Source: a virus
IMG/VR virus record: IMGVR_UViG_3300028840_000849
Coordinates: 1 to 21,612 of that record
Length of the DNA: 21,612 bases
Direction: 5' to 3' (one strand)
Positions 2,361 to 19,254 of this stretch are shown in pieces; positions within the stretch are counted from its first letter, which is position 1, and every line of letters begins with the position of its first letter. The notes beneath the pieces are model-generated. The model saw only the letters and a list, made by a program, of their open reading frames with translations. It was not told the DNA's origin and did not search any database. Position numbers and translations under genes: made by a program.

Positions 2361-2645
2361 TCAGCACCACGGGAACGTGAAGTAAAGGGCCATAAAGGCA
2401 CCACCAAAAACGAAGCTAGCAACACCCCACCAGAAATTACCTAGAGCACGCTTGTTCGCCTCACTGTAATACAGGTCGTGGTAGGAATCACGGACCTCCT
2501 CAGTAGCTTTGATCCTCGCCTTGAGTTTCTCGATCTCCTCAGCGTGTGAGCGGCTATGACTCTCCTTCCGGTGTAGCGTAGCCTGCATACGGCGGTTTAT
2601 CTTAGCCCACTCAGTACTGGTAATGTTTGGCACTTTCTTACTCAT
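2361..2645 (-). CDS. Coiled-coil protein with C-terminal membrane anchor
   Basis: 94 residues. Residues about 15-65 are charged and heptad-like (for example SHAEEIEKLKARIKATEEVR), giving a short coiled coil. Residues about 69-91 are hydrophobic and aromatic and end in FTFPWC, a C-terminal transmembrane anchor. GGAG lies 6-7 nt before the ATG, and the gene overlaps the upstream stop by 8 nt. The arrangement suggests a cytoplasmic rod tethered to the inner membrane. Function is unknown; together with the neighbouring two-helix protein it forms a small membrane-protein cluster. Confidence 0.7.
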   Translation of the reverse strand: MSKKVPNITSTEWAKINRRMQATLHRKESHSRSHAEEIEKLKARIKATEEVRDSYHDLYYSEANKRALGNFWWGVASFVFGGAFMALYFTFPWC

Positions 2646-2889
2646 TGTTCACTCCAAAAGGGTCTGGGTCGTCAGTGCACATAAAGCCAGCAGCTTCATA
2701 TCCATCAGCTAACATACGAGCCTGTAACTCGTAGTTAGACTCAATCAGTTTTATGATATTATCAGCACTGGTGATGCACTCTTCTTCAGTAGCAAAGGGC
2801 TGTCCTAGCTGCTCGATAGAGTTCATGTCCGGCTGTCCCCCGTCAAACACGAGGACAGACCAGAGAGCAAAGGCTGCGGCACTAATCAT
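2638..2889 (-). CDS. Small protein with hydrophobic N terminus, unknown
   Basis: 83 residues from ATG 2889. AGGAG lies 10 nt upstream, inside the end of the preceding gene; a GTG at 2910 is possible but would overlap that gene. The N terminus (MISAAAFALWSVLVFDGG) is a hydrophobic stretch that could be a signal or a single membrane segment. The rest is acidic and helical, with two Cys (EEECITSADN and AGFMCTDDPDPF). It overlaps the next gene by 8 nt. If exported, the two Cys could form a disulfide. Family not recognised. Confidence 0.65.
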   Translation of the reverse strand: MISAAAFALWSVLVFDGGQPDMNSIEQLGQPFATEEECITSADNIIKLIESNYELQARMLADGYEAAGFMCTDDPDPFGVNNE

Positions 2890-2890
2890 G

Positions 2891-3061
2891 TTAGATAAAC
2901 TCCTCTTCACCTAGAGGAATCGCTGGGTCGATCAGCTTGCCGACGGCTTCATTGAGAGCAGCTATAGACGCCGCGATGTACGCCTCATTGCCCTTGCTAA
3001 CGACAAAGCCATTCTGAAGAATGGTAATCATAATCTGTTCAGGTTGGTTCTGGTTGCTCAT
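2891..3061 (-). CDS. Small protein of 56 residues, unknown
   Basis: Start ATG 3061 is set by a very good AAGGAG 8 nt upstream; a longer reading to 3106 would overlap the DUF3310 gene and has no ribosome site. The product (MSNQNQPEQIMITILQNGFV) ends IPLGEEEFI and looks like a short beta-strand/helix domain. The stop is followed by a single base and the next ATG. The palindrome GCTCCTAAGAGC (3078-3089) lies between the ribosome site and the upstream gene and covers that gene's stop codon. No function can be assigned. Confidence 0.68.
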   Translation of the reverse strand: MSNQNQPEQIMITILQNGFVVSKGNEAYIAASIAALNEAVGKLIDPAIPLGEEEFI

Positions 3062-3081: not shown

Positions 3082-3369
3082 CTAAGAGCGGTTTAGACGT
3101 AGCCAATCACGATACTTGTTACTCTTGTCGATGTCCTCTTTTAACTCCCCCTTGTCTCCTGCACGCAAGCGGTACTTGAGGATGTTACCAAGTAGATAGC
3201 CCTCGAACTGCTCGGGGGTCAGTGCCCTCTGGATGATATCGATGACTTCAATCCCTTCTGCAATCTGGTAGTGACTTGGATAGTTCACTACGTCATCAGA
3301 GACAACCCGCTTGAGACTTGCTGTGCCGAGATCCTCATCAAGAAGCATCTCTGTCGCTCCATCGCTCAT
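3082..3369 (-). CDS. DUF3310 family protein
   Basis: 95 residues. The signature VNYPSHYQ (28-35), GIEVIDIIQ (39-47), EGYLLGNILKYRLRAGDKG (56-74) and a C-terminal KYRDWL match the DUF3310 family common in phage replication modules, sometimes labelled nucleotide-kinase-like. The biochemical role is not established. The first 25 residues are a variable acidic lead-in. Start ATG 3369 overlaps the upstream TAA (TAATG), with GGAGG 9 nt upstream. The stop codon lies inside a CTCCTAAGAG palindrome. The family call rests on motif memory rather than a search. Confidence 0.82.
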   Translation of the reverse strand: MSDGATEMLLDEDLGTASLKRVVSDDVVNYPSHYQIAEGIEVIDIIQRALTPEQFEGYLLGNILKYRLRAGDKGELKEDIDKSNKYRDWLRLNRS

Positions 3370-3665
3370 TAGTGCAGCCCTCCCTCTATGTTACCTCCAC
3401 CAAACTCAGCTAGTGCGTCAGCAGTATCCTGAGCCTCCTTGATACCCTGAACCATCATGTCAAACGCCTTGGCTATGATGTAGGAGTTCTTCAGGTCATC
3501 GTCCATGTCGTGCGGGTCAGCGTGAGTTTCTTCAGCCTCAATCACTAAGCCCTTGCAGCTAGCCCATACAATAGTGCACGCCGTGATAGGATCACTCTGA
3601 AGGAGATCCACCATCTCATCATCATCGTATATCCGCTGTTCAATGTCCAGTTCATCAAAGTCCAT
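3369..3665 (-). CDS. Small acidic protein, unknown
   Basis: 98 residues from ATG 3665, chosen because AGGGG lies 7 nt upstream and the ATG follows the exonuclease stop by one base. A longer open frame to 3926 runs antiparallel to nothing useful and overlaps the exonuclease gene. The protein is strongly acidic at the N terminus (MDFDELDIEQRIYDDDEMVD) and otherwise helical, ending in a Gly-rich tail (EFGGGNIEGGLH). It could be a small DNA-mimic or partner of the neighbouring nuclease, but no motif shows this. Confidence 0.72.
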   Translation of the reverse strand: MDFDELDIEQRIYDDDEMVDLLQSDPITACTIVWASCKGLVIEAEETHADPHDMDDDLKNSYIIAKAFDMMVQGIKEAQDTADALAEFGGGNIEGGLH

Positions 3666-3666
3666 G

Positions 3667-4413
3667 TTAAAGCCCCTGTTGTGTAAGTTTAACTCTCTTG
3701 CTCTCGCCCTTATCTGCGAGACGGCTCCTACTCCAAGTACCACAGTCCTGACACTGGTATTGCTGGTACACCATTGTCCTCGTCTTTGCCTTACCCTGCT
3801 TGGTAACGTGAGTACCACCACAGTTCGGACAGACGGCTTGTTCGCTATTCGCAAATAGCGCACGGTTAGGATGCCTGTCAATCCAAGGAAGCATGCGCTC
3901 GTACAGCAGCTCCAGCAGCTTAACATCCTGAATGTTATACTTTTTCATGCGGCCCCATGCTGGCTTGTCACCAGCCATGCACTTAACCCACAGCTCATGT
4001 CCCTCGTGCTCGTGCTTCTTGCCAAGCCCAAGCCTACTGGCTACGTAGTCCAGCTTGTTGCTGGGGAACTTGAACTTGCCGCGAATCACGCGGTACAGAT
4101 CAATCTGCTGGTACGGGCTAGGTGGATCATACCCATCAAGTAGAAAGTCCTTGTTGATTGTCGGGATGTCAAACTTGGTGCCGTTGTAGTGAACAACAGC
4201 ATCAGCCTCGTGTAACAGTTCCCATAGCGTATCCATCATGTCTTTGTCGTTGCGCGACTTGAAGATAACCTTCTTCTCACCGTGCCACTTAGCAGCAAAG
4301 CAGAGTGTGTAACTGCTCTCCATGAGTTGCTTGGTCGAGACTGTCTGCTTGAACAGCCCCCAGACATGCGCTGTGTTAGGGCTTGTCTCGATGTCTATGT
4401 GTAGGAGTTTCAT
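3667..4413 (-). CDS. DnaQ-like 3'-5' exonuclease with C-terminal zinc ribbon
   Basis: 248 residues. An RNase H-fold DEDDy exonuclease is indicated by LHIDIET (D7, E9), VHYNGTKFDIP (N77, F81, D82) and KYNIQDVKLLE (Y159, D163). After about residue 190 there is a zinc ribbon with CPNCGG (C195, C198) and CQDCG (C221, C224). The domain likely degrades single-stranded 3' ends or proofreads; the ribbon probably binds DNA or a partner. The ATG overlaps the stop of the endonuclease I gene (ATGA), with GGGAG 6 nt upstream. The polymerase has its own exonuclease domain, so this is an extra activity, probably for recombination or nucleotide salvage. Confidence 0.85.
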   Translation of the reverse strand: MKLLHIDIETSPNTAHVWGLFKQTVSTKQLMESSYTLCFAAKWHGEKKVIFKSRNDKDMMDTLWELLHEADAVVHYNGTKFDIPTINKDFLLDGYDPPSPYQQIDLYRVIRGKFKFPSNKLDYVASRLGLGKKHEHEGHELWVKCMAGDKPAWGRMKKYNIQDVKLLELLYERMLPWIDRHPNRALFANSEQAVCPNCGGTHVTKQGKAKTRTMVYQQYQCQDCGTWSRSRLADKGESKRVKLTQQGL

Positions 4414-4811
4414 TTAATTCTCCCGATGTCGTTAATGTGGAAGTACCGGAAGCCGTGTCGGTTGCACCAGTCTCCCATACTCATCTTCGCTCCTTTGCGT
4501 ACCTTCTTCTCGGGATTAGAGAAGCAGAATACTAGCTCTTTATCTGACTCTTCAGCCTCTAACTGATCCCTAACAGCCAAGTATTTGGCTTGATCCCCGC
4601 TCCTGAAGAAGCCCTTCACTTCGATCAGTATGTCATCCTTAACGAAGTCCGGCTTGTACTTACGCTCCATGACGTAGGGTACATCGTAAGGCTCATACTC
4701 CCAATCTTCTCCTAAGAGCAAACTCGCCTTGTGTTCGAGAGCACTCTTGAACTTGCCAATCTTCTTGGGCTTACAGTTCGACCTCTTCGTCCTGCTCCGA
4801 GCTTTTCTCAT
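4410..4811 (-). CDS. T7-type endonuclease I (Holliday junction resolvase)
   Basis: 133 residues. The pattern SALEHK (E26), YKPDF (D55) and LIEVKG (E64, K66) matches the catalytic E20/D55/E65/K67 arrangement of phage T7 gp3. That enzyme resolves branched DNA and helps break down host DNA. A very basic N terminus precedes the core. Length is slightly below T7's 149. The start overlaps the preceding gene by 41 nt; GGAAG lies 6 nt before the ATG and no later in-frame start precedes the catalytic core. A CTCCTAAGAG palindrome at 4709-4718 encodes part of SLLLGED. Confidence 0.87.
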   Translation of the reverse strand: MRKARSRTKRSNCKPKKIGKFKSALEHKASLLLGEDWEYEPYDVPYVMERKYKPDFVKDDILIEVKGFFRSGDQAKYLAVRDQLEAEESDKELVFCFSNPEKKVRKGAKMSMGDWCNRHGFRYFHINDIGRIK

Positions 4812-5882: not shown

Positions 5883-6401
5883 CTACTCTGCCTCAGTCTT
5901 AGCCAGTGCTTCAGCTTCAGCCTTGTCAAGATCGCCAGTAGTGTATGCCTCGAAGTACCGAGCCACCCTCACTACGGCTTCCATGTAACCCTCAACATCG
6001 TCACCAGCGCCTATCTCGCCACATGCCCGCTGAGCCGCTGTGAGCGCGTTCTGGCGGTTAATGGTGCGCTCTGGTGCCAGAGGTTCAACCGGGAATGAAC
6101 GTCCTCCACGGAAGCCACCACCGCCTCCAGAGTTGCTCTTAGGAGCAGGAGTTGATGGTACAGCAGCCCCTGAACCAGCAGCCACGACAGTCAGTGACTT
6201 GATGTTGCGGTAGCCCTTGTCTGTCTGCTCGAAGGTAATCACTACTTCGTCGCCGACATTGGCGCTCCACTTCTTGAAGCCCCCACTGTACTCCTCACCG
6301 TCAATCGTGAACCGCTTAGTGACCTTCGGCCCCCACTTGGTATTCACATTAACGTCCATAACGTTCTGGACTACGCCCTGTTTCTCTAACAAATCACTCA
6401 C
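5883..6401 (-). CDS. Single-stranded DNA-binding protein (OB-fold, phage type)
   Basis: 172 residues from a GTG start with AAGGAG 8 nt upstream. An N-terminal beta-rich domain (about 8-75; KWGPKVTKRFTIDGEEYSG, VGDEVVITFEQ) looks like an OB fold. It is followed by a Pro/Ser/Gly linker with GGGGGFRGGRSF (about 93-104), then a helical domain (TINRQNALTAAQRACG) and an acidic C-terminal tail ending TEAE. OB fold, Gly-rich linker and acidic tail are typical of SSB-like proteins that recruit replisome partners. It is not a classical E. coli-type SSB. A consensus TTGACA-17-TATAAT promoter lies just upstream, giving a separate strong expression start. It contains a palindrome at 6136-6145. Confidence 0.75.
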   Translation of the reverse strand: MSDLLEKQGVVQNVMDVNVNTKWGPKVTKRFTIDGEEYSGGFKKWSANVGDEVVITFEQTDKGYRNIKSLTVVAAGSGAAVPSTPAPKSNSGGGGGFRGGRSFPVEPLAPERTINRQNALTAAQRACGEIGAGDDVEGYMEAVVRVARYFEAYTTGDLDKAEAEALAKTEAE

Positions 6402-7249: not shown

Positions 7250-7873
7250 TCAGTTGTTGTGTGGGTTATCAGTGCCGGTGTTCGGGGAGCCATCCTTTCC
7301 GCCTCCCTTACCCGGATTGGTGCCATCACCTAGCCCCGAGTTATTATCCGAATTGCCCCCACTATCACCACCACTATCCCCACCATCAGGATCAGATCCA
7401 CCATCATCCCCGTTGTCGCCTCCACTATCGCCGCCTGAACCTCCACCGGAGTCATCGCCCTCTCCAACACTGCTACGTTTTCGCTTGCCATTATTGTCAT
7501 CTCCTTCGTTGATGCGAGTCCCGGCATAGAAGTATGCCAGATCAGTGTCATAGCTGACAACACCTACCTCAACTTCCCCCTGATAGGTGGATGCAGCTAC
7601 GTATGGAACTACCGACTTGTGGAACGTGCTGATTGATGCTCCAATACTAGCCGTGTAGTCATCCCCTGCTGTTAGGCCCGCACCAAACTGCGCGTTGCCC
7701 ATCGTATCGAAGCCCGTTCGTGCCTCGAAGTTATCGTTGCGTACTACAAGCTGAAACCCTACGCCGCTGAAGTCCGTGGGGATCGTAAGGTGAATAGCGC
7801 CATACTCCTCTGCCTGTACAGGAGAGGTGGCTAACATTGCTGCCAAGATTGTGCTCTTAAGAGGAAATTTCAT
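7250..7873 (-). CDS. Exported Gly/Asp/Ser-rich protein with signal peptide
   Basis: 207 residues. Residues 1-21 form a classic Sec signal peptide (basic MKFPLK, hydrophobic core STILAAMLATS, cleavage after PVQA). Residues 22-120 are amphipathic beta-strand-like (FQLVVRNDNFEARTGFD, YTASIGASIS, EVEVGVVSYD), as in small outer-membrane or periplasmic beta proteins. From about 120 to the end the chain is low complexity, dominated by Gly, Asp and Ser (GGDSGGDNGDDGG repeats), resembling a calcium-binding or flexible tail. AAGG lies 8 nt before the ATG. It sits between polymerase and SSB genes, an odd place for an envelope protein. A CTCTTAAGAG palindrome covers codons 5-8. Superinfection exclusion or surface masking is possible but unproven. 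Confidence 0.78.
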   Translation of the reverse strand: MKFPLKSTILAAMLATSPVQAEEYGAIHLTIPTDFSGVGFQLVVRNDNFEARTGFDTMGNAQFGAGLTAGDDYTASIGASISTFHKSVVPYVAASTYQGEVEVGVVSYDTDLAYFYAGTRINEGDDNNGKRKRSSVGEGDDSGGGSGGDSGGDNGDDGGSDPDGGDSGGDSGGNSDNNSGLGDGTNPGKGGGKDGSPNTGTDNPHNN

Positions 7874-7892: not shown

Positions 7893-8771
7893 TTAGAATG
7901 GAGCTGGGATAAACTCTTCCATGTCCTGCCAGTTTTTCCCAATTTCTGCATCGACTTTAAGTGGCATGCTGAAGTCAACATGGAGATGCTCCTTCAGCAT
8001 CTTCGGCGCTGATTTCATAATCGTTGATGCGATGTACGCCCAAGTTTGGGCGTGACTTTCATTAATGCAATCAAACACCACTGAGTCATGCACTGTGTTG
8101 ATGAACAACACAACTTCTCCTCCTTGGGCATTATTATAAATACACAGTTCCCTGAAAAGCTTGCCTACTACCATAGGAACAATGTCGCCAGTTGCATAGC
8201 CCTGAACCTGATAGTTCTTTACCTTGGTTGGACTAAACGTTGTTGCTTTGGGCTTGGCACCGGGGTATCTTGGGTTCGCCATCCAGTCAGGCGCATCGTC
8301 TTCCCAGAAGGTATAGATCCTGCCAGTCTCTGACTGGAACTTACTCTTACCTTTCTGAAATCCCTTTGGGGTTCTCCTGTCAGTCACTCTCCTGCTGCCC
8401 TCAATCTCGGTCTGTAGATGCTCCTGATATAGACGTATCATCGGATAGCGGCTGTAGTACTGGTCTATGAACTTCTTCGCCAGAGACTCAGGGATGTTAT
8501 TCTGAGCTGCCATGCTCTTGTAGCCTGCTCCGTACTGTAGCTGGAAGCTAAGCGATTTAGCGATACGCCGCTGCGCCTTGGTGAACTTGCTTCCAAACAG
8601 CTTAGAGGCTGAGATCCCGTGGAGATCCTGTCCACTCATCAAGTCCTGTCTCAGTTGCTTATCACCACTTAGATGAGCAAGCACAAAGATCTCAAGCTGT
8701 GAGTAATCAAGCTCAAGAATCCGGCCCTCATCTCCGAAGCGGGATCGTAAGTACTTTCTGATATCACTCAT
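7893..8771 (-). CDS. Family A DNA polymerase, C-terminal (palm/fingers) part
   Basis: 292 residues carrying all polymerase catalytic motifs. Motif A is LDYSQLEI (D22), motif B / O-helix is RRIAKSLSFQLQYGAG (R69, K72, Y80), and motif C is NTVHDSVVFD (H228, D229). Motif C reads HDS where E. coli PolI and T7 have HDE. The ORF starts mid-domain: the preceding gene ends with the GRLS...PNMQQ segment that normally continues straight into IRKYLRSRFG here. AAGGA 6-7 nt before the ATG allows reinitiation 2 nt after the upstream TAG. A -1 slip at C-AAA-AAG would instead fuse the two into about 699 residues, close to T7's 704. It contains no CTCYTAAGAG copy, unusual for its length on this side of the window. 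Confidence 0.92.
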   Translation of the reverse strand: MSDIRKYLRSRFGDEGRILELDYSQLEIFVLAHLSGDKQLRQDLMSGQDLHGISASKLFGSKFTKAQRRIAKSLSFQLQYGAGYKSMAAQNNIPESLAKKFIDQYYSRYPMIRLYQEHLQTEIEGSRRVTDRRTPKGFQKGKSKFQSETGRIYTFWEDDAPDWMANPRYPGAKPKATTFSPTKVKNYQVQGYATGDIVPMVVGKLFRELCIYNNAQGGEVVLFINTVHDSVVFDCINESHAQTWAYIASTIMKSAPKMLKEHLHVDFSMPLKVDAEIGKNWQDMEEFIPAPF

Positions 8772-8773
8772 GT

Positions 8774-9991
8774 CTAGTCCTTTTTGCTCGACTGCTGCAT
8801 GTTAGGTTTGACACACGAGAGCCTGCCAGTGTCAGTATTGGTATGCTGGTAGCTCGGATGAAGCAAGCCAGTGTGCCACGTCATGCCAATATACGGCTTG
8901 TAGAAGGCCGTGATGTCTTTCTGATGCTTGCGGATCTTCCGCATGAGATCAACGATCTCTAGTGTGACTGGATCTATATTACGTGCTCTAGCAATTGCCT
9001 TAAGTATGTCATCGTCCAGCTTCCACGTACCATTCTTGCCCATCGTGGAGCCAACGTCAACAGGGTTTACTCGAATCTCCAGACGTACTTCTGCTTTACC
9101 CTTCTTCGTCTTTACCTGTCCCTTCCTTGCTCCTGTCTTGAACCTCAGTACGTTGCCCTCTGAGTCGTACTGTGTTATGTCCCTCGGGTACGTGTGAATC
9201 CCTCCTAAGAGGAATTTGCTCATCTGAGTAGCTGACATAACATCAAGCGGTACACGATGGGGCAGCTCTGCCTCCACAAGAGTCTCTAGCCGGTTCTTGA
9301 ATCCGAGAATCTTACCCTCGATTTCTGTCATCTCCTTCTCTGCTTCCTTCTTATCAAAGAAGGTGCCGTTGCACTCCATCTTGATAGTAGCCATACGGGC
9401 TTCCATCATCTGCATGATGAGGTTGACCTGATTCTGCTGGTAGGCTATATCAAGCTGCGAAAGAAACACAAGCTCAGTGTTCTGTACATCATGAGCTAGG
9501 TAATCCTTGAGTTCATCTTCCGGTATATCCTCTGTAGCTATACCAGCCTTCCAGTACTCCTTGATCTTATCATCCTTCAGCGTACCTCCGTACTTCTCTG
9601 AGCAAAAGTCCAGAGAAGGCCATTTATGCTCCTGTCCACTGATGATGTATTCAGCTAGCATCGTGTCCCATATCAAGCCACCGCTATGGAACCATTGATA
9701 CCAATCTGCGTACTGAGGGAAAAGATGTCCTAAGCGATGATTCTGGCCCATAAGCAAGTATTGCAAATCAAAGGCGATATTATGCCCAACGACAAGCCTG
9801 ATGTCATCCTCAAGTTCTGGAGGATTAAACTTTGGATAGATGGTTACGTCATCGTCATGCTCATTCTTCACTCCTGCATAGACTATCTCGTTCACGGGGT
9901 GGAATGGAGAGGCCGCAAAGCCGCCGCCCTGTAGATCATCTCCCACATTCCTGACCGTAGTTTCCAAGTCCAACACTTTGTATCTACCCAT
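8774..9991 (-). CDS. Family A DNA polymerase, N-terminal (3'-5' exonuclease and thumb) part
   Basis: 405 residues from ATG 9991, which has AAGGAG 9 nt upstream; a longer frame to 10078 overlaps the preceding gene. It contains the proofreading exonuclease: LDLETT (D8, E10), GHNIAFDLQYLL (N71, F74, D75) and DYLAHDVQ (Y164, D168). The thumb region follows, then TDTGRLSCVKPNMQQ just before the end. The ORF stops at KKD-TAG in the middle of the polymerase domain. Alone it could only be an exonuclease, so it must pair with, or be fused by frameshifting to, the next ORF. A palindrome lies at 9202-9211 and the one-way word CTGACCGTAG at 9951-9960. Confidence 0.92.
   Translation of the reverse strand: MGRYKVLDLETTVRNVGDDLQGGGFAASPFHPVNEIVYAGVKNEHDDDVTIYPKFNPPELEDDIRLVVGHNIAFDLQYLLMGQNHRLGHLFPQYADWYQWFHSGGLIWDTMLAEYIISGQEHKWPSLDFCSEKYGGTLKDDKIKEYWKAGIATEDIPEDELKDYLAHDVQNTELVFLSQLDIAYQQNQVNLIMQMMEARMATIKMECNGTFFDKKEAEKEMTEIEGKILGFKNRLETLVEAELPHRVPLDVMSATQMSKFLLGGIHTYPRDITQYDSEGNVLRFKTGARKGQVKTKKGKAEVRLEIRVNPVDVGSTMGKNGTWKLDDDILKAIARARNIDPVTLEIVDLMRKIRKHQKDITAFYKPYIGMTWHTGLLHPSYQHTNTDTGRLSCVKPNMQQSSKKD
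8780..8786 (-). promoter_or_regulatory. Candidate -1 frameshift site joining the two polymerase ORFs
   Basis: On the minus strand the last codons of the first polymerase ORF read AGC AAA AAG GAC TAG. Slipping back one base at C-AAA-AAG continues as GGA CTA GAC ATG AGT, which enters the second ORF in frame and yields KK-GLD-MSDIRKYL. The A-site codon re-pairs well (AAG to AAA); the P-site re-pairing (AAA to CAA) is weaker than in the classic A-AAA-AAG. An alternative is stop-restart, since AAGGA precedes the second ATG. Confidence 0.5.
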
Positions 9992-16171: not shown

Positions 16172-17314
16172 TCAAATGAGGGGGGTGCCATAGACAGTCG
16201 TCCAGAAGTTAATCACCGTGTCCCGCTCGTTCTCATCGGCGAAGCGGTTGAGCATGGTGTACACGAAGCCATTCTCATAGCTGCGTGTAGCAATAGCCAG
16301 CTCCATCCAAGCCATGAGATTACGTGGTGACATGGTAACACCGAGCTGCCCATCACGGCAACCCTGACGGATCATGTTAGCCATCTGCACAGCGCGGCCA
16401 GCCTGCTTAACTGGCACAGCCGGGAACCGTCCACGGAGCATCCCAATCTCCTCATCCTGCGGGAGATAGTCAAGATGAACCACGATGTCCACACGATTCA
16501 AGGTAGAGCTATCCTGAATCATGGTAGCAGCGAACCGCCCATCGTCATCACCCGTGCCGACCACGTTGTCAGCCAGCATCAGGATGGTGCGCTCATGGGG
16601 AGCGAACTGCTTGGACTTCAGGTCGCCCTTCATGTCGTCAATCTGAAGGATGCCATCACGCTCCAACGGACGCTGAAGAGCCATGCTGATGCTAGCCGGG
16701 AGCTTCCACGGCTCATCCAGCAGCATGTAGTAGCCCTTGACAAACCGCTTCGGAAATTCTCCTAAGAGGAAAGTCGTCTCGCCACCCTCCAGATCCACAC
16801 GGCCAAGGATGGTGTCTGACTCCATATCACCGCGCCCATTCAGCCTGTAGAAAGGCTGGTTGTACACAGCAGCCAGATTCTCGTGCAGCTTGGACTTACC
16901 TGTGCCCGTGTCGCCAACAGTGAGAGCCTTCATACCGACGAGCTGTCCCTGTACCAGAGGATACAGAACGTGGTGCTGCCATACATAGTGCGGGTCAAGC
17001 TTGGGAACGAAGCACCTGTCCTCCTCATCCCAATCTGAGTCATCAAAGCACAGCTTGGAGATGTCAAGATCAGGACGATGGTTGTCCTCCAGCCATTTCT
17101 TGCCGCCCTCAAACGTATCGCTGTACATCACCGCGCCTGTACTACTGACCGTAGTTACTCCTTCCCCTCCCTCAGAAGGAAGCTCGAACAGCTCTTCAGG
17201 TTTCTCTTCAACATGTACCTCCTCGCTCTCATCCAGCCCCTTAGCTGCCTTGATGCGATCAAGGATCGTGTTGCGGCACAGATTACGTACACTGTCTTCG
17301 GTTGGTGTCGTCAT
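16172..17314 (-). CDS. MoxR/CobS-like AAA+ ATPase
   Basis: 380 residues. AAA+ core: LTVGDTGTGKSKLHENLA (Walker A, K140, S141), YYMLLDEPWKLP (Walker B, D200, E201), ILMLADNVVGTGDDDG (sensor-1 Asn region) and STLNRVDIVVHLDY (Arg-finger-like region, R near 294). This matches CobS/MoxR ATPases that remodel a VWA partner, here the next gene. In cobalt chelatase the ATPase/VWA pair helps CobN insert cobalt, but no CobN-like subunit is present. Residues 1-110 are an acidic, probably flexible N-terminal region. The ribosome site comes from the palindrome copy at 17322-17331 (AGGAG, 7 nt). An internal palindrome lies at 16759-16768. Confidence 0.85.
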   Translation of the reverse strand: MTTPTEDSVRNLCRNTILDRIKAAKGLDESEEVHVEEKPEELFELPSEGGEGVTTVSSTGAVMYSDTFEGGKKWLEDNHRPDLDISKLCFDDSDWDEEDRCFVPKLDPHYVWQHHVLYPLVQGQLVGMKALTVGDTGTGKSKLHENLAAVYNQPFYRLNGRGDMESDTILGRVDLEGGETTFLLGEFPKRFVKGYYMLLDEPWKLPASISMALQRPLERDGILQIDDMKGDLKSKQFAPHERTILMLADNVVGTGDDDGRFAATMIQDSSTLNRVDIVVHLDYLPQDEEIGMLRGRFPAVPVKQAGRAVQMANMIRQGCRDGQLGVTMSPRNLMAWMELAIATRSYENGFVYTMLNRFADENERDTVINFWTTVYGTPLI

Positions 17315-17324
17315 GTTTTTGCTC

Positions 17325-19115
17325 CTAAGAATAAGAAATGATGTGATCTTTAATTACGCCAAGCACTGCACCTTCAAGCTCATTACTGTGATTGATAACC
17401 CTCCAGTTACTATATATCCTTTCCACAGTGTCGTCAAGTATACCGATACTGCACAGCTCAACTCTGCCCTGCTTCTCGATGTCCTTCACCACCGCTATTG
17501 TATGGCCCATTGAATCACCATAGCCACATGCAGGTTGCCCATCACTCAGGATGAGCAGGATCTTACGCTGCGTATCCTGCCTGAGCAGCCGATCATACGC
17601 AAAGAGCAGGGACTCGCCGTCACTATTGCTATTCATACCACCAGCAGCAAAGGCACTAACATTCAGCATCAACTGCTCCTGTGATACACGTTTGCCGAAC
17701 GACTTGAAGATGCCATGCTTTGGTGCACTGCCTCTAGTAGTAAAGCCAAGCATCTCCAGTGGTAGCCCTAATGGTGCGATGGCATCGTTGAGTAGTATCA
17801 GCGACTGACCAGCATGCGTGAACTTGTGATTGCCCATACTACCAGAGCAATCCATCAGCACAGTTACTGCTGTGTCCAGCATGTTGTTGACCTGCTTCTT
17901 CTTGAACACCTTGCGTGCCGCCTCGCCTCCCTGAGCCGTGCGATAAAGGCTCTTAGGAGAGATTTTGCCACGCTTTTGTGCATGCTCATACCGTGACTGC
18001 CCCTTAATCATGAGCAGTCGCTTGACCTTCTTGCTCAAGCCCTTGCTATCAGGCATCAATGAGGCATGGTATCGGCCCGGCGATGTAGCAGGTTCCTTTG
18101 AGTAGTCAATGAGAACGAAGTCCTCAAGCGCAGCATCCGGCCAGCGCGTCGGCGTGTAGTTGTCGTAGTTGATCGTCAGGTTCGCGAACGATTCACCGCT
18201 ATCCGTACCGGCATCATGCTTACCGTCATGGTTGTGGGCGAGTAGGTCGGAATAGTCAACAGTTCCATCGGTAGTTCGCCGACCGACAGCCCCGGATTCA
18301 GAGCCTTCGCCGTCATCACCACTAGATACTCCCTGCCGTCCTGACTTCCCATCGCCCTTCTCACCTGAGCTGGACTCATTCCCAGAGTCTCCGCTATCAG
18401 GAGATCCTCCTGTAGCTCTGTTGTATTCATCTGCACTCTCCTTCTCTTCCTTCTCAGGATCAAGCTCGAACACTTCCTTCAAGATCTTGAGCACCAGTTC
18501 ATACTCTTCCCGTTCATCGATTCCGCTCTTAAGAACAGTTCCGTAGCCGCCAGCATTCAGCCGGTCTACCCACTCACGTTGCTGCGGGTTCATGTGCTTG
18601 TCATATATCTGCTCACCAAGCCCAGCAAGCCGTGGCATCCACTCAGTGCGCTGCATAGCATCCCAGCAGAACAGAGCCTCAGCCGCCTGCCGCTTCATGG
18701 GAGCCGTGCCCTGACCGTAGCTATCCCACTTTGCCTCCGTGGTCATGAATGTGTAGTAGCCATCCTGTATACGCCTGTCCCTGCCCTTGTAGTGCCCTCG
18801 ATCATACATCTCCTGCCTATGATCCTCCAGCACATTGAACACGAAGCCAAGGAAGCTCTGTGTTGATATCTTCTTCTCCTTCATCAGATCCCAAACAACC
18901 ATAAGATCAGGATGGTTATGCCCAAGCTCATGCTCGAACATATACCACCACACGATCTTCTTGTTGTCGTTCATGTCAGGCGTGGGCCGCTCAAGGTAGA
19001 TGTACCTGCCATCGGTACGTGGTGCGCACTTATCCTCGAACACCACACTCAAGCCCATGTTGCCAGCCCTGACCTTGACCTCACGCTGTAGTGCGTAGTA
19101 GTTAAGGACACTCAT
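17325..19115 (-). CDS. CobT-like VWA-domain protein with N-terminal HExxH motif
   Basis: About 596 residues from ATG 19115 (AGGAG 9 nt upstream, in palindrome 19125-19134; an ATG two codons earlier is only 3 nt from it). The N-terminal domain has FEHELGH (H62, E63, H66), a zincin-type metal motif, followed by FNVLEDHRQE (93-102), as in CobT-family proteins. A Ser/Gly/acidic linker spans about 222-310. The C-terminal VWA domain has the MIDAS LMDCSGSM (D422, S424, S426) and ILSDGQPACGYGD further on. It is the partner of the AAA+ ATPase downstream. A chaperone or metal-insertion machine is the family expectation; the phage substrate is unknown. Internal palindromes lie at 17950 and 18526. Confidence 0.83.
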   Translation of the reverse strand: MSVLNYYALQREVKVRAGNMGLSVVFEDKCAPRTDGRYIYLERPTPDMNDNKKIVWWYMFEHELGHNHPDLMVVWDLMKEKKISTQSFLGFVFNVLEDHRQEMYDRGHYKGRDRRIQDGYYTFMTTEAKWDSYGQGTAPMKRQAAEALFCWDAMQRTEWMPRLAGLGEQIYDKHMNPQQREWVDRLNAGGYGTVLKSGIDEREEYELVLKILKEVFELDPEKEEKESADEYNRATGGSPDSGDSGNESSSGEKGDGKSGRQGVSSGDDGEGSESGAVGRRTTDGTVDYSDLLAHNHDGKHDAGTDSGESFANLTINYDNYTPTRWPDAALEDFVLIDYSKEPATSPGRYHASLMPDSKGLSKKVKRLLMIKGQSRYEHAQKRGKISPKSLYRTAQGGEAARKVFKKKQVNNMLDTAVTVLMDCSGSMGNHKFTHAGQSLILLNDAIAPLGLPLEMLGFTTRGSAPKHGIFKSFGKRVSQEQLMLNVSAFAAGGMNSNSDGESLLFAYDRLLRQDTQRKILLILSDGQPACGYGDSMGHTIAVVKDIEKQGRVELCSIGILDDTVERIYSNWRVINHSNELEGAVLGVIKDHIISYS

Positions 19116-19254
19116 AATCATCTGCTCCTAAGAGTGATTCCAGCTCAGCACGAAGGTACATCTCATGCTGATATATCAGGTAATCGTAGTCTACCACACC
19201 CTGATACGGGTCGTCAAAGTCCTCGAACGTGCGGGTATCTTCTGCGATATTCAT
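19102..19254 (-). CDS. Small acidic protein, 50 residues
   Basis: Translated by hand: MNIAEDTRTFEDFDDPYQGV, then DYDYLIYQHEMYLRAELESL and ADDYECP. The AGGAG of palindrome 19263-19272 lies 8 nt before the ATG. The gene end overlaps the VWA gene start by 14 nt and encodes the palindrome 19125-19134 as SLLGA. Strongly acidic with many Tyr; it could mimic DNA or act as an adaptor, but no proof. Confidence 0.68.
   Translation of the reverse strand: MNIAEDTRTFEDFDDPYQGVVDYDYLIYQHEMYLRAELESLLGADDYECP

Follow-up and report, generated by a model that had tools for sequence, protein, structure and literature searches.

A family A DNA polymerase on two neighbouring genes of a metagenomic virus contig and its split relatives in a Zobellviridae-like lineage

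Organization of the polymerase locus

The window, that is, the whole analysed stretch of 21,612 bases from an IMG/VR virus record, is a single metagenomic contig representing a genome fragment. ORF calls and searches against Pfam and PHROGs showed the presence of a compact replication operon on its minus strand (Table 1). Two consecutive genes of this operon, ORF-N and ORF-C, together encode the domains of a family A DNA polymerase. Neighbouring genes in the window are packed equally tightly, with overlaps of 4–8 nt.

The C-terminus of ORF-N is TGRLSCVKPNMQQSSKKD, followed by the stop codon TAG, and the N-terminus of ORF-C is MSDIRKYLRSRFG; the junction reads CAG CAG TCG AGC AAA AAG GAC TAG AC ATG AGT. 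The A-run of C-AAA-AAG forms the beginning of AAAAAGGA, the Shine–Dalgarno sequence of ORF-C, and a similar sequence is also located upstream of the gene for the probable single-strand DNA-binding protein. The order of an exonuclease/thumb ORF followed by a palm/fingers ORF, described in an earlier note on this DNA, agrees with the coordinates and with Pfam matches on both pieces, and the AAGGA which that note placed before the second ATG is present as described.

Directly after the polymerase genes lies an ORF with a signal-like start and a Gly/Asp/Ser-rich repetitive tail, for which a PHROGs search gave no match. Elsewhere, the window contains an AAA ATPase and CobT/VWA-like pair resembling the cobaltochelatase subunits CobS and CobT; such pairs are present in other phages. 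A nucleotide search of the phage collection with the polymerase region of the window gave no match, so all comparisons were made at the protein level.

Table 1. Features of the window and of related loci
Sequence	Feature	Position	Strand	Remark
Window	Replication operon: primase-like protein, DnaB-type helicase, two polymerase ORFs, 5'–3' exonuclease, endonuclease I		-	
Window	RNase H-like/zinc-ribbon protein		-	same operon
Window	Gene similar to DUF3310	3082-3369		elsewhere in the operon; by eye
Window	Probable single-strand DNA-binding protein	5883-6401	-	assigned by eye
Window	ORF with signal-like start	7250-7873	-	
Window	ORF-C	7893..8771	-	292 aa; remaining palm and fingers; motif A, O helix, motif C
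Window	Gap between ORF-N stop and ORF-C ATG	8772..8773	-	2 nt
Window	ORF-N	8774..9991	-	405 aa; 3'–5' exonuclease domain, thumb, first palm segment (TGRLS..PNxQ)
Window	ORF-N tail codons	8777..8848	-	residues 382-405, including R390 (= Klenow R668)
Window	Shine–Dalgarno sequence of ORF-C	8778..8785	-	
Window	C-AAA-AAG run	8786-8780		
Window	AAA ATPase and CobT/VWA-like pair	16172-17314 and 17325-19121	-	
ICP2 (L004)	ORF in the gap, annotated HNH	3576-4025		NC_015158.1 41371-41820
L030	DUF3310 gene	3927-4500		between polymerase halves
L094	tmRNA match	7546-7624		Rfam RF00023
L166	EndoVII-like cassette	3104-3760		break AAG -CA TTA GAA
L254 (=L168)	EndoVII-like cassette	about 2501-2990		break CAA CTG TAA CTG GAG
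L255 (=L167), L256, L257, L258	EndoVII-like cassette			break CAA CTT T CTT GAG
L259	EndoVII-like cassette			break CAA CTG TA GAG

Domains and catalytic residues

The Pfam profile DNA_pol_A matches both pieces, with profile positions 55–130 in ORF-N and 141–381 in ORF-C (8.9e-38), and ORF-N also has a weak match to the 3'–5' exonuclease profile, below its cut-off. In PHROGs, each half is represented by a separate DNA polymerase family, phrog_9556 and phrog_2573, each covering about that half. The exonuclease residues of ORF-N, namely, D8/E10 (DxE), N71/D75 (NxxxD) and Y164/D168 (YxxxD), are invariant or nearly invariant. The same is true of R390 of the TGR motif in ORF-N among type I chains (defined below) and, in 20 type I chains, of ORF-C residues D22 (motif A), R68/K72/F76/Y80/G81 (O helix) and H228-D229 (motif C).

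AlphaFold2 predicted ORF-C alone with a mean pLDDT of 92.5 and pTM of 0.87, and the predicted fold matches Pol I, Taq and Pol theta. The prediction for ORF-N alone, matching phiVC8 DpoZ, T7 polymerase and Pol I, is good except for residues 83–90 and the last 24 residues (382–405), where pLDDT is below 50. In E. coli Pol I numbering, taken as the Klenow chain position plus 323, profile matches put the end of ORF-N near residue 680 and the beginning of ORF-C near residue 689. The cut thus falls within the palm, where a short linker of variable length joins the R668 motif to motif A.

Split polymerase loci among relatives

IMG/VR and GTDB genomes were searched with a profile for each half, and a locus was classified by HMM as intact when both profiles matched one stop-to-stop ORF, and otherwise as split. 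The sample, which comprises the best-scoring loci and is thus biased by the search and is no census, contains 175 intact and 71 split loci. After removal of duplicates and partial loci, 26 loci of type I (25 without L176) and 34 of type II were retained; L176, a genome contig classed as split but weak, was excluded from subset trees, and L018 and L020, each matched to an incorrect upstream ORF, were dropped from the split set by coverage.

Two break positions were found. In type I, to which the window belongs, the break follows PNxQN and precedes MS-x-I-[KR]; in type II, the kind found in phage MEP401, it is shifted towards the C-terminus by about 15 residues and falls between FDGEIKxLFxSRY and M[LI]LQADAK[QA]LEW. 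The window is divided between PNxQN and motif A into two consecutive genes, as are polymerases of the ICP2 and MEP401 kind. The start MS-x-I-[KR] is conserved in second chains and is absent from intact relatives, which in the break region contain, for example, NISNNPIKQIFTSRF or SKSNIKNAYISRWG, with no MS start. Since about 25 non-redundant relatives, cultured phages among them, share this break, the split in the window is more than a chance event.

The distance between the halves is far less constant. In both types, the second ORF can lie in each of the three possible frames with respect to the first, and the gap ranges from -4 nt, with an ATGA overlap (L015, L039 and L040), and -1 nt (L141 and L148) up to 831 nt (L027). 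The contents of the gap are unrelated, being empty or represented by HNH, DUF3310, a small HTH protein or ORFs with no Pfam match, while an SD-like sequence precedes most second ORFs. One contig with a split polymerase, L094, also contains a tmRNA match (66 bits) of only 79 nt.

In trees of the joined halves, the distribution of intact, type I and type II loci requires three changes, versus about 21–54 with shuffled labels. Type II forms one branch with full support in careful trees, and type I as a single clade was not rejected (AU p 0.50). The window falls among the type I rows, in a position within type I that is unsupported and has no starred branch. The same three changes may correspond either to one old split with later refusion or to two or three separate splits.

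Split DNA polymerase genes were reported in 2023 for the OM43 phages MEP401 and MEP402, for which an intron was suggested (PMC10580990), and in a few Zobellviridae, separate genes were noted for the exonuclease domain and the polymerase domain (PMC10143988). Split family A polymerase in Zobellviridae is accordingly already published, and the window is a further example; the additions made here are the two break positions, their clustering in the tree and the evidence against the published intron idea.

Cultured relatives with the same break

The closest isolates are the Vibrio phages VP41s3 and the ICP2 group (Zobellviridae), with 37–41% identity in each half. The same break was found in Vibrio phages ICP2, ICP2_2013_A_Haiti, MJW, Rostov-5342, Saratov-12 and VP41s3. 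In VP41s3 and the ICP2 group, the first gene ends with TGRLSSSxPNLQN[IL]SN and a stop codon, and the second gene begins with MS-D-[IV]-K. In Haiti, Rostov-5342 and Saratov-12, the halves share one frame with 9 nt between them; they are separated by an HNH_3 endonuclease in MJW, by an unrelated ORF of about 87 aa in VP41s3 and by a 72-aa ORF in the IMG/VR contig L005. The ORF in the gap of ICP2 is annotated as HNH, and a Pfam search gave no match for it. Within the ICP2 group, dN/dS is about 0.03–0.16 in both halves, indicating purifying selection.

EndoVII-like cassette in type II loci

In seven type II IMG/VR contigs, an EndoVII-like ORF (phrog_3322, phrog_1035), with a promoter-like TTGACT...TATACT upstream of it, was found where the second polymerase gene begins (Table 1). 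Since L257 is identical to L258 over the compared part, the independent count is about six. To the left of the cassette, a short remnant of the old start is retained, and to its right, the SD, ATG and MLLQADAK are re-supplied, with the recoded start MLLQADAKQ. A small frame break occurs just after the cassette, each time before LEW of motif A (DAK[QA] / LEW). In the first survey, the motif was in frame in all 32 cassette-free type II split loci versus none of the three cassette loci.

An assembly error was first suspected; recurrence of the break in separate contigs argues against it. L255 and L256, which share one common break, differ with dN of 0.006 and dS of 0.211, evidence of strong purifying selection downstream, so the ribosome may shift or hop at this point. 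Tentatively, these contig sequences might be explained by invasion of the second gene at motif A by an EndoVII-like homing endonuclease, with a shift or hop possibly required of the ribosome there, a reading that we consider doubtful on balance. For L255–L258, initiation beyond the catalytic Asp is a possible alternative to recoding, and an assembly artefact is a further possibility for the cassette contigs.

Alternative explanations of the break

One alternative is a programmed -1 frameshift at C-AAA-AAG, fusing both ORFs into a 699-aa polymerase; the earlier note had raised a -1 slip there as a possibility. The arithmetic of the note is correct, as the slip would read SSKK-GLD-MSD and give 699 residues (404+3+292), and the -1 frame is open through KK-GLD-MSD with no stop. 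The AAA AAG pair is rare, occurring in 3 of the 32 scanned ORFs of the window, and slippage is somewhat favoured at A-AAG codons in the many bacteria that have a single tRNA-Lys (PMC5009743). However, the best known bacterial slip site is A_AAA_AAG (PMC5009743), and C_AAA_AAG is no X_XXY_YYZ heptamer; pseudoknot-free RNA folding around and downstream of the site does not exceed that of shuffled sequences (z of 0.22, 0.68 and 0.92); and the SD-led ATG comes right after the ORF-N stop, with the A-run of the slip site overlapping that SD. Conservation of the slip site and of the frame relation was sought in the examined split relatives and found to be absent: among them, all of the offsets 0, +1 and +2 occur, and some inserts are several hundred bases long. 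Since the frame relation and distance vary between phages while the break residue is constant, a programmed slip would be unable to serve the lineage, and this explanation is highly improbable. Low-level slippage yielding a fused minor product at the window junction is possible. The other option of the same note, stop and restart with a two-subunit enzyme, is favoured by the break, catalytic residues and own SD and ATG of the second gene, which are shared or kept across relatives.

It is also very unlikely that the break results from a sequencing or assembly error in which one A was lost from a homopolymer of an intact gene. One extra A would restore an open frame, and the source is a single metagenomic contig. 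Against this, the homologous break occurs in cultured, independently sequenced phages as well as in many contigs, and intact relatives have neither the MS start nor the SD of the window. The earlier note named intact relatives differing here by one base as a sign of such an error; when these were looked for, the nearest relatives proved to be split too, their second chains beginning with the conserved MS-x-I-[KR], which makes the error unlikely.

A self-splicing intron has been implied both by GenBank, where the ICP2 polymerase is written as a two-piece spliced join around the HNH ORF, and by the suggestion for MEP401 (PMC10580990). Group I introns do occur in family A polymerase genes of other phages, and MJW, like ICP2 according to its annotation, has an HNH endonuclease between the halves. 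However, the window, Haiti, Rostov, Saratov-12, L015, L033 and L039 have no insert, or an overlap, yet retain a separate stop and start; the inserts of other loci include ordinary genes, such as DUF3310; and no intron was found by an Rfam intron search of 16 sources. Insert-free and overlapping pairs are incompatible with an intron as the general cause, and there is scarcely any likelihood that one interrupts the gene; because in the insert-free sister phages of ICP2 the two ORFs are bounded by a stop and a start of their own, the ICP2 join is probably unnecessary. Decay of the polymerase gene, leaving one or both halves non-functional, begins with just such a broken ORF, but is barely credible given catalytic motifs intact in both halves across deep divergence, dN/dS well below 1 in the ICP2 group and the location of both ORFs in a tightly packed operon alongside genes for helicase, primase, SSB, exonuclease and endonuclease I.

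Proposed two-chain enzyme

Accordingly, the locus very probably encodes a replicative family A polymerase (Pol I/T7 type) as two adjacent genes, the products of which would be two separately started chains sharing one active site. The same break in ICP2 and in dozens of environmental phages points to an old split, inherited in a Zobellviridae-like lineage, rather than to a sequencing error or a ribosomal frameshift.

ORF-N would provide the proofreading exonuclease, thumb and first palm segment, and ORF-C the remaining palm, fingers and catalytic aspartates. ORF-C would be initiated at its own Shine–Dalgarno sequence and ATG, probably by coupling to the termination event at the ORF-N stop, 2 nt before the ATG; the ATGA overlaps of L015 and L039 are as in coupled genes. 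The chains may then assemble into a composite palm, with the R390 motif of ORF-N against D22 and D229 of ORF-C. Judging by the structural models, the ORF-N tail (residues 382–405) probably folds only upon completing the palm of ORF-C, which suggests a shared active site and an obligate two-chain complex. As the contig is a 21.6-kb fragment, an intact second polymerase is possibly present elsewhere in the phage.

A family A polymerase cut inside the palm and kept so over deep phage divergence indicates that the fold tolerates the cut and that lineages retain what would be a two-chain active site. The junction, located in a short linker of variable length, offers a ready-made model from nature for the design of split Pol A enzymes. 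The comparison also speaks against any need for an intron, as suggested in the literature, or for the spliced annotation of ICP2, and it disposes of an attractive but false frameshift call.

Comparison with known systems

In fold and catalytic motifs, the window polymerase is similar to T7 DNA polymerase, the Klenow fragment of E. coli Pol I and DpoZ of vibriophage phiVC8, but these are single chains, whereas the window has two ORFs. Gene order and break point are as in gp50/gp51 of ICP2_2013_A_Haiti and other Icepovirus. The Haiti break is PNLQNISN-stop / MSDIKRC, and identity to the window is 37–39% in both chains; in the window, however, the gap is 2 nt rather than 9 nt and the frame offset is different. 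ICP2 (by annotation) and MJW contain an endonuclease ORF in the gap, while the gap of the window has no insert.

MEP401 and MEP402 (PMC10580990), which are also Zobellviridae, resemble the window in having Pol A in two genes, exonuclease/thumb and then palm/fingers. Their break, however, is about 15 residues later, after FDGEIKTLFLSRYGE and before MILNADAKALEW, with a small ORF in the gap, and they belong to a separate, well supported branch of the tree from the type I of the window.

T4 gene 60 is a recoded gene adjoining an endonuclease (PMC5009743), of which the breaks at the type II cassettes, known from contig sequence, are reminiscent. A replicative polymerase is likewise divided between two genes, which may or may not have an endonuclease between them, in gp43A/gp43B of the T4-related Aeromonas phages 25 and 44RR; the two T4-type chains of phage 25 purify together and polymerise actively (review PMC2988022). 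These proteins belong to family B and have a different break, whereas the window polymerase belongs to family A.
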